Below, piece by piece: positions 29,711-34,299 of a stretch of DNA of 37,201 bases (position 1 is the first letter of the stretch; each line of letters opens with the position of its first letter). The notes beneath the pieces are model-generated. The model was not told the origin of the DNA. It saw only the letters and a list, made by a program, of their open reading frames with translations, and searched no databases. The translations under genes and the position numbers were made by a program. The stretch is from an uncultured Fidelibacterota bacterium (lineage in GTDB: Bacteria; Fidelibacterota; Marinisomatia; Marinisomatales; UBA1611). The stretch lies in the NCBI GenBank assembly GCA_902602795.1, contig CACKSF010000009.1:1-37201 (forward strand), given 5' to 3'.

Positions 29711-30688
29711 TTATACTATTTTGACTACATTTTTTAAAATAGTTTTTGATGCACTACTCAGATTCCATCCAAATAGTCTTCGTAGCTCTTGCAAAGATTT
29801 CTTGTAGTTTAATCCTAGCTCCTCATTAGCAATCTTATAATGGCTTCTATGATCGAAATTTTCCCACAAAATTTGAGGATATTTTTCTCGATATTTATTT
29901 TCTATCTTTCTTATCTTTTGCTTTCCTACATTGTGTTCATCATTAAAATACCACATACTTTTTCCATATATAAAGGTTTTTCTTTTCATTGCTAAACTGT
30001 AAAAAATAGCACTTGACCAAGACTCAGATGAGACATATTCAAATTCTTTTACAATGTCGATAAAATTCTCTAGAAATTTGGGATTATTGTCTCTTTTACC
30101 CATGCAAACAGTTGAAATATTTTGCCTGGTAAATAGATCAACTATGTATTCGTTTTTAAATTCAATATCATATAATGAAACTGCAACGATTTCGAAATGA
30201 GATTTAATTTTATTTATATCCTCTATATACTTTTCATAAATATTTTCTATTTTGGTGAAATTATCTGACTCGCAAGAATGCAAAGGGAATAGGATTAAAC
30301 TTTTTGGTTTTGGTTTAGTGGTAATCGCATACATATCTAGTAAATATAAAAACGGAGCTCCTATCCCAATTGTATTATTTAAACCATCTTTTTGGCTACT
30401 TGATAAATTCCATTTATTCCACAAGTAGTATCTTTTACTTTTATCAAAGAATGGCTTTAGGTCAGGATTATTGGGACCTACACCATTATAAACTGACCAA
30501 CCATGTTGCATCTCACCGTTAATTTTATAGGGAAGAAAGGTTCTACTATATTTTTTTAAAATAGAGTAATGACCATAATAAAGGTTATCGATATTGTTTT
30601 CCCAAAAAACGGTCGATAACAAGTGTAAGACCTTTTTTTTTAGCTTGTATAGTTGAAAATGAAAATATTTAAAAATATTTAAAAACAC
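29711..30688 (-). CDS. Putative glycosyltransferase (GT-B-like), function unassigned
   Basis: 325 aa; INGEMQHGWSVYNGVGPNN, NNTIGIGAPFLYLLD, LILFPLHSCE, FEYVSSESWSSAIFYSLAMKRKTFIYGKSM resemble C-terminal nucleotide-sugar binding regions of capsule-type glycosyltransferases. No named family recognised. Confidence 0.5.
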   Translation of the reverse strand: MFLNIFKYFHFQLYKLKKKVLHLLSTVFWENNIDNLYYGHYSILKKYSRTFLPYKINGEMQHGWSVYNGVGPNNPDLKPFFDKSKRYYLWNKWNLSSSQKDGLNNTIGIGAPFLYLLDMYAITTKPKPKSLILFPLHSCESDNFTKIENIYEKYIEDINKIKSHFEIVAVSLYDIEFKNEYIVDLFTRQNISTVCMGKRDNNPKFLENFIDIVKEFEYVSSESWSSAIFYSLAMKRKTFIYGKSMWYFNDEHNVGKQKIRKIENKYREKYPQILWENFDHRSHYKIANEELGLNYKKSLQELRRLFGWNLSSASKTILKNVVKIV

Positions 30689-30725: not shown

Positions 30726-31193
30726 TTATTTTGAGTGCTGATTTAAATGCTTAATGTCTTCTTTAGGAAAATAAAGTTTATTGAAAGATTCTAAGCGTTC
30801 CCTAGCATTTTGTACATTTTCGAATTCAACACTTTGTTTACATTTCATAGAAGAAACTAATAATAGGTGGAGGATCTTAAGCTTTTTCAAATAATCCTTA
30901 GAGTTTTCGCTCAGCCTTTGAGTCATGAAATATTCAGCTACAATAACTTGAATATTTTGAGCATGCGTTTCTTTAGCATTCGTCCACCTTATGACCTGAT
31001 TTATTGATTGGGGATCATTCTTAGAAGATAATTTGACTATTTGTTCCATTGCTTTTTCAATTGTATCTAGATCTTCACGAATTTGGGAAACTTGCATAGC
31101 ATCTGAATAAATTCCGCAGGGGACTTGGCAATGAGCAAACAAATAAAAATGATACAAGCAAATCATTAAAAAACATTTAAAACCGTTAATCAT
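30726..31193 (-). CDS. Nickel superoxide dismutase (SodN-like) with predicted N-terminal signal peptide
   Basis: MINGFKCFLMICLYHFYLFA|HCQVPCGIYSDAMQVSQIREDLDTIEKAMEQI...: matches the NiSOD nickel hook HCxxPCGxY followed by the helical bundle (HAQNIQVIVAEYF). Confidence 0.87.
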   Translation of the reverse strand: MINGFKCFLMICLYHFYLFAHCQVPCGIYSDAMQVSQIREDLDTIEKAMEQIVKLSSKNDPQSINQVIRWTNAKETHAQNIQVIVAEYFMTQRLSENSKDYLKKLKILHLLLVSSMKCKQSVEFENVQNARERLESFNKLYFPKEDIKHLNQHSK

Positions 31194-31439
31194 AAAACAG
31201 ATCCTTATTTTTATTAAATATAATCAAAAAAATATCAATTTATATTAAAATTTAATCAAAATATTGTAAAGATTAAATTGTACTTTACAAATGTATTATT
31301 TTCTATAGATGAACACATATTATGATAGCCTTTAATAGGCTACCATATGCTTAAATCTATAATTTATATTTTTTGTCTTTTTAGTTAAATGTGATTTTAA
31401 AAAGAGATTTTGAAAACATTAAGAAATAAAATATTCTCT

Positions 31440-32156
31440 GGGTCTTTGCAAGCAATTAAAAGGAAAATTAGCAGAATATTTAAGAATTAAATTTAAAAGC
31501 GTGTTAATGTATGTTACAACTGCGTTAATAATTGCATAAAAAGCTTCAACATTTAAAGGAGTGGTTATTACCTTACTCTATTCATATATTGCAATAGCGC
31601 ATTCCAGAAAAAGGAAAAACTTACCAAAAAAATAATATTTTTACTTTTATGATGGTGTACCATCAATAAGCGTTAATGTAAATGGCAAATCTTTTTTGCA
31701 TTTTGGCAATATGTCTATTCTATGTTTTAAGATACAAAAATTTTCACAAAATTTGAAGATACTGTTTTTATTTCAAAAAACTAAACTTTGAAGAATAGAA
31801 TTAATAAAATGAGAAATTTTTTATCAAGGGGAAACAATCCTATTCCAGAGATCGGCATAAATGAAAAATAAATGAGGTATCTGTCGCAATGGGTATGTTG
31901 CAATTGAAATATTTATCCACAAATATTAGTAAGAGGCAAAAATGTTTAGAATGCTACTTGAAAATGATATTGCATGCCTCAAGTATTGGTATCCTTTCGT
32001 ATCTAATCAACCAGTTTATAAGTATGAAAAAACTTTTTCTCTGGAAAAAGAGCTGCGCATTATAAATCTGTAATCTCTCTACTAATTTATTCAGAATTAA
32101 CTGATTCTGAAACAGATTGGATTATCAAAATAATTAAGGAAAATTATATTAGTTGA
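31440..32156 (+). pseudogene. Decayed DegT/DnrJ/EryC1-family sugar aminotransferase
   Basis: No intact ORF, but ordered fragments of a DegT protein across frames: CKQLKGKLAEYLRIKF / MYVTTALIIA*KAS.FKG (cf. GT.AL..ALKA..I..GD) / VVITLLYSYIAIAHS (cf. VITTP.SFIATA) / NEVSVAMGMLQLKYLSTNISKRQK / AHYKSVISLLIYSELTDSETDWIIKIIKENYIS*. Confidence 0.75.
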
Positions 32157-32408
32157 AATCTAGCAATACTTATTTCTCTGCTGAATTATGCGATAAGGAT
32201 TAGAACCGATCCATCTTTATTGATCGTTCATATGATGGATTATGTTATTTTACCACGAAATATATTATTTACTTAATGCTTGCTTTTTTTATTTTGACCT
32301 ATTTAATATACAAATGCCTTAAACGGTAACCTTGTGCGGAGTTCTATTCAATTGAATATTTTAGTTTTTCATAACAAATTTAATTTATAAAGTTGATTTT
32401 TTAATTAA

Positions 32409-33570: not shown

Positions 33571-34299
33571 ATGATTGATATTCATAACCATATATTTCCA
33601 AATATCGATGATGGTTCTAAATCAATTGAAATGTCTATAAATATGCTAAAATATGCATACGAGCAAGGTGTCACAGATGTAGTTAATACTGTTCATTTTC
33701 AGCATCCATTATTTTTAAATATTGATCATTCTTTAGAAAACTTTGAGAGAATTGCAAAATCATTACAATCAAAATTAGATGAACTTAAAATTTCTATAAA
33801 AATCCACTTAGGTTCAGAGGTATTTTATTACGAAAATTTATTGAAGATAAGTCATGAGCCTTTGACTACTATGGGATCTGGAAAATATATGTTAATAGAA
33901 TTTTCACCTAAAAATATTCCAAATAGTCAAAAACAGACACTCTTTGATTTAAAAATGAGTGGTATAACTCCAATTATAGCCCATCCTGAACGATACAAAT
34001 TAGTCCAAGAAAACTTTCATGTTATATATGACTGGATTAATGCGGGCTGTCTTATTCAAGTAGATGCTGGAAGTTTATTAGGATTAATGGGGGAAAAAGC
34101 GAAAAAATCTTCTCATTTAATAGTCAAGGAAAATTGTTGCCATATTTTGGCTTCAGATGCTCATAATGATTCAAATAGAAATTTTTGCATAAAAGATGCA
34201 TATGATTATGTAAAAAATATAATTGGTAAAAAAAATAGTGAGCTTCTGGTTTATGAACATCCTTCTAGTATAATAAAGGGAGAAGATCTATATTTTTAA
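33571..34299 (+). CDS. CpsB/CapC/YwqE-type PHP-family tyrosine-protein phosphatase
   Basis: MIDIHNHIFPNIDDGSKSIEMSINMLKYAYEQGVTDVVNTVHF, GSEVFYY, MLIEFSP, PIIAHPERY, LASDAHN. Confidence 0.92.
   Translation: MIDIHNHIFPNIDDGSKSIEMSINMLKYAYEQGVTDVVNTVHFQHPLFLNIDHSLENFERIAKSLQSKLDELKISIKIHLGSEVFYYENLLKISHEPLTTMGSGKYMLIEFSPKNIPNSQKQTLFDLKMSGITPIIAHPERYKLVQENFHVIYDWINAGCLIQVDAGSLLGLMGEKAKKSSHLIVKENCCHILASDAHNDSNRNFCIKDAYDYVKNIIGKKNSELLVYEHPSSIIKGEDLYF

Follow-up and report, generated by a model that had tools for sequence, protein, structure and literature searches.

The window analysed here, a stretch of 37,201 nucleotides from a Candidatus Neomarinimicrobiota bacterium (a phylum now named Fidelibacterota at NCBI), encodes a nickel superoxide dismutase (NiSOD) that is probably exported, that would owe its nickel-binding His1 to the cut of signal peptidase, without SodX, and that would be loaded with nickel outside the cytoplasm. 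We give this reading a probability of about 0.78. The translated open reading frame (Table 1) bears out what an earlier note on this DNA had seen in it, namely a hydrophobic leader ending in LFA with the nickel hook HCQVPCGIY right behind it.

Table 1. Parts of the gene for the probably exported NiSOD in the window.
Feature	Position	Strand	Details
NiSOD precursor (export predicted)	30726..31193	(-)	155 aa, ATG start; PF09055 99.1 bits
Sec-type signal peptide (predicted), 20 aa, MINGFKCFLMICLYHFYLFA	31134..31193	(-)	sequence, cut-site matrix, 140 homologues
Nickel hook HCQVPCGIY	31107..31133	(-)	codons run 31133 down to 31107
NiSOD helical-bundle body	30729..31106	(-)	AlphaFold2 + Foldseek; Y88-F89, clade-wide RW..KE.HA

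The start codon is preceded, 8 nt upstream, by AGGA. The leader, MINGFKCFLMICLYHFYLFA, abuts the hook directly and has a lysine (K6) in its n-region, a hydrophobic core, leucine at -3 and alanine at -1, so that in n-region, core and both cut-site positions it has what is expected of a substrate of Sec and type I signal peptidase. Export through Tat and a lipoprotein were also considered and set aside, the leader containing neither an RR motif nor a lipobox. In the hook the ligands His1, Cys2 and Cys6 are intact and Pro5, Gly7 and Tyr9 are present, while residue 3 is Gln where the classic enzymes have Asp. A degenerate-codon pattern for HC[EQ]xPCG matches the window only at 31114-31133(-), and never in 100 shuffled versions of it.

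The protein belongs to the Sod_Ni family (PF09055, E 3.6e-28, 99.1 bits against a cut-off of 25), the match spanning profile positions 5-124 of 127. Since it falls below the cut-off of the NCBIfam sodN equivalog TIGR02753 (39.3 bits against 90 required) and matches the Streptomyces NiSOD only weakly in a phmmer search of the PDB, it is, judged by its sequence, a divergent NiSOD; of the traits of classic SodN (Asp3, a short non-hydrophobic propeptide, an adjacent sodX) it has none. Residues of the NiSOD bundle might have been missing on alignment, as the earlier note had envisaged, yet the predicted structure is a NiSOD-like bundle and the hook ligands are intact: a family-based AlphaFold2 model gives a helical bundle (mean pLDDT 89.1), and 16 of the 17 top Foldseek matches in the PDB are NiSODs (TM 0.72-0.80 by target). 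An alignment across the order shows no variation in the residues of the hook or in the pair Y88-F89 (YF), and this pair aligns with the 'DYF' motif of Streptomyces NiSOD, Y88 with Tyr62. A near-invariant cysteine of the exported class, within MKCKQ, gives way to S or T in three members (L011, L021, L027) and is thus not strictly required.

The positions aligned with Glu17 and Arg47 of the Streptomyces enzyme are not conserved, and residue 3 is E or Q, so the choice of metal or the rate could differ. In the best of the alternatives, the protein is exported and cut at His1 and either works with another metal, such as copper, or is a metal-binding or sensor protein. The loss of D3 in all exported members, the lack of conserved Glu17 and Arg47 equivalents, the score below the sodN cut-off and the general metal transporters found as neighbours elsewhere (for instance ZnuA/ABC-3 in L079) all speak for it. 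We nevertheless consider it unlikely: H1, C2, C6, P5, G7 and Y9 are kept in 140/140 homologues (the search pattern demanded most of these), the tyrosine aligned with Tyr62 is invariant, the fold matches NiSOD, and genomes of the window's family (f1) with the exported type show no other SOD.

That the NiSOD is cut at His1 is supported by the way in which the leader is conserved. A scan of public genomes for far homologues, made with the family alignment and with patterns placed within the mature protein, the leader being excluded, returned at least 562 relatives. Among the best 80 of these, which come from Desulfobacterota, Planctomycetota, Verrucomicrobiota, Calditrichota, Acidobacteriota, Gemmatimonadota, Nitrospirota and others, the leader ends exactly at His1 in every case and the -1 residue is A, G or S in 77. 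In the window's order, too, every exported-type NiSOD starts with a hydrophobic leader that runs right up to the hook. Taken together, 140 distinct homologues with a readable leader, from Neomarinimicrobiota and many other phyla, carry a signal-peptide-like leader directly at His1 (median peak 9-residue Kyte-Doolittle hydropathy 2.84), in a set for which the hook itself served to find the proteins and start codons were picked to give leaders of reasonable length. Their -1 residue is A in 108, G in 19, S in 10, P in 2 and V in 1 (A/G/S in 137, 98%) and their -3 residue is always L, A, V, I, T or S, with positions -2 and -4 to -12 variable; behind the leader, the hook of the class reads HC[E/Q]xPCG, D3 being replaced in every exported member. 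A cut-site matrix covering positions -13 to -1, built from 136 homologous leaders, none of them from the window's genus, gives the window protein a single positive cut, LFA|HCQ, at 14.7 bits (next best -1.3), and in a leave-one-out trial it picked the His1 cut in 126/139. The proposal that signal peptidase cuts after Ala20 and so exposes His1 is backed by both the -1/-3 pattern and the matrix, and A20|H21 is supported as the predicted cut site.

Alternatively, the leader could stay on as a membrane anchor or be cut elsewhere, leaving His1 blocked and the enzyme inactive or different. The window's leader is indeed short, its end is rich in aromatic residues, and with Leu in position -3 it is not a textbook AxA case. 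A small residue at -1 in 98% of homologues with the neighbouring positions free is expected only of a cut site, however, and the matrix favours A20|H21 and no other cut in the window protein, so that we regard this alternative as improbable. The layout of predicted leader and hook is a widespread conserved class that extends beyond a single gene; viral contigs yielded no relatives. The class is directly testable because it has members in cultured strains, among them Desulfacinum infernum, Desulforhopalus vacuolatus and strain NaphS2.

SodX follows a second type of NiSOD. Neomarinimicrobiota also have 11 classic NiSODs, whose hook is HCDxPCG and whose leaders are short and polar (MNEINAYA is an example). 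When 245 genomes of the phylum were searched for SodX (TIGR02754, E <= 1e-6), it was found in exactly 10, every time directly next to a classic D3 NiSOD; the remaining, 11th classic gene runs past the end of its contig. Not one of the 73 genomes that hold only the exported type has it (Fisher p = 4e-12, related genomes not being independent), and the three genomes holding both types (G015, G082, G083) have it only by the classic gene. Above the curated cut-off it was likewise absent from 50 genomes of other phyla with the exported type. Matches below the cut-off were mostly LepB-like frames of 320-400 aa matched in their C-terminal part only; three others (G260, G288, G292) were frames of 179-279 aa. 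All are below the cut-off, the ones that could be read resemble signal peptidases, and none was accepted as SodX. The earlier note had seen no dedicated maturase in the window, and the idea that none is needed finds support across the phylum. SodX was detected neither in the window nor in the window's genome (1.38 Mb, 59% complete). LepB was not found in that same 59% complete genome; LepB-like matches are present in genomes of the same genus.

A tree of mature NiSODs (FastTree, with long branches present) splits the D3 enzymes, Streptomyces included, from the E/Q3 enzymes by one branch with support of 100. From this tree and the distribution of SodX, hook residue 3, leader type and SodX travel together, and at the level of sequence we could show that the signal-peptide NiSODs with E/Q3 form a class separate from the SodX-dependent D3 class. 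Because SodX is itself a signal-peptidase-like (S24/S26) protease, one may read the exported class as having passed the same cut, between a small residue and His1, on to the housekeeping signal peptidase. The arrangement seems to stand in for the dedicated protease on which known NiSODs depend for their maturation. A further alternative is that the NiSOD stays in the cytoplasm and is matured by a protease like SodX that is encoded elsewhere in the genome and has escaped recognition. A cytoplasmic role would be useful in a family without a detected cytoplasmic SOD, and the genome is incomplete, but with hydrophobic leaders where true SodX substrates have short polar ones, and with SodX missing from 73/73 exported-only genomes and, above the cut-off, from the 50 of other phyla, we give it very little credence.

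The preferred reading, export with maturation by signal peptidase, would run as follows. Sec would carry the unfolded precursor across the inner membrane, and type I signal peptidase (LepB), to go by the conserved -3/-1 pattern, would cut after Ala20. This single cut would release the protein into the periplasm and free the N-terminal His1 of the HCxxPC hook, and because one cut would do both, no dedicated SodX would be needed. Nickel would be loaded after export and outside the cytoplasm, since the hook depends on a free amino group at His1, which is absent before the cut. In the periplasm, the mature enzyme would go on to dismute superoxide.

We also looked for other superoxide-removing enzymes in these bacteria. 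Among the 33 genomes of the window's family we found neither Fe/Mn-SOD nor Cu/Zn-SOD, and no superoxide reductase beyond one 27-bit fragment, absences that are weak evidence in each draft genome and consistent across the family. A 22-bit Fe-SOD match in one of them (G001) proved to be an amidohydrolase-like protein. The exported NiSOD is present in 18 of the 33, including genomes that are 96% (G005), 95% (G010) and 92% (G012) complete, and the classic type in three, one of which (G015) has the exported type too. In family members that carry it, the exported enzyme may therefore be the main or only SOD. Some other family genomes (G003, G021, G022; 92-96% complete) have none of the four SOD and superoxide reductase families searched, an odd lack in bacteria that live in oxic sea water. 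Three genomes of the wider order combine an exported NiSOD with a leaderless Fe/Mn-SOD, as expected if the two work in different compartments, and nine Fe/Mn-SODs of the order start without a leader, like cytoplasmic enzymes. Cu/Zn-SOD and exported NiSOD never occur together in 61 relatives (0/25 against 6/36, p = 0.07), an exclusion that fits a periplasmic role for NiSOD without being strong. As for nickel uptake, importers of the NikM/CbiM type were found in 0/33 family genomes, and HupE-type permeases occur in a minority of relatives, both with and without NiSOD, which makes them uninformative as a marker. We put forward more tentatively, at somewhat under even odds, a broader proposal: that a large class of NiSODs, spread across phyla, is activated by the general signal peptidase and takes up its nickel outside the cytoplasm, and that in one Neomarinimicrobiota family such an enzyme would be the sole one removing superoxide, the cytoplasm having no recognisable SOD.

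The surroundings of the gene vary. Surface glycan genes do lie nearby, as had been pointed out (CpsB/CapC, PF19567, at 33571-34299), but they look incidental: they recur next to NiSOD within the genus and in a few members of the family, and the NiSOD neighbours of other Neomarinimicrobiota are different ones. A search around NiSOD for an operon or chaperone gave no neighbour common across lineages, only single cases such as CbiQ/ABC in L058 and ZnuA/ABC-3 in L079. A 325-aa protein without a Pfam match is encoded on the same strand 37 bp downstream (29711-30688(-)) and adjoins NiSOD in the same-genus contig L193 too; it is possibly co-transcribed with NiSOD. In the divergent intergenic region upstream of NiSOD, the window has about 980 AT-rich bases (approximately 31351-32335) more than L193 (8054-8279). 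These extra bases hold no ORF longer than 58 aa, match nothing in Rfam and lack clear terminal repeats. TGC is all that the junctions have in common, and the difference is either an insertion in the window or a deletion in L193. The upstream region also contains an 11-pair palindromic stem-loop, TATGGTAGCC/GGCTATCATA (31321-31347), largely kept in L193 and possibly a terminator or an operator. In another genus (g11; L188, L202, L203, L204, L206) the exported NiSOD stands beside giant secreted-looking proteins of 1300-2500 aa, on the same strand.

A literature search combining nickel superoxide dismutase with signal peptidase gave no match, though an earlier mention in work on NiSOD diversity is possible. 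SodX has been described as the activating protease of NiSOD (PMC8346466, PMC3919588, PMC4284471), and cyanobacteria with sodN and without sodX have been considered possibly unable to use it (PMC8346466); if signal peptidase can mature a NiSOD, the absence of sodX is no evidence of inactivity. Many NiSODs of sulfate reducers, planctomycetes, verrucomicrobia and marine FCB bacteria would then be exported rather than cytoplasmic (one has been reported in a sulfate-reducer genus, with no comment on export in the relevant part of that report; PMC10116758). Some nickel enzymes would then also do without any passage of their metal into the cytoplasm, and in some bacteria the one recognised SOD would be a protector of the periplasm.

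Compared with known systems, the window NiSOD has in common with the classic SodN and SodX pair of Streptomyces and marine cyanobacteria the HCxxPCGxY hook, the four-helix bundle, a mature chain of about 120-135 aa and, if the cut is as predicted, a His1 freed by proteolysis. Classic SodN has a short polar propeptide, Asp3, an adjacent sodX and no export signal, whereas the window NiSOD has a predicted Sec signal peptide, Gln3 and no sodX. The ubiquitin-NiSOD fusions of algae offer a parallel, as a general-purpose enzyme is proposed there to free the hook instead of SodX; they differ in being eukaryotic and in having ubiquitin as the partner, with no export signal noted in the parts of these sources that describe them (PMC4460010, PMC6332867). 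With the bacterial periplasmic Cu/Zn-SOD (SodC), finally, the exported NiSOD would share location and role, the removal of superoxide in the periplasm, through an unrelated fold and different metals.
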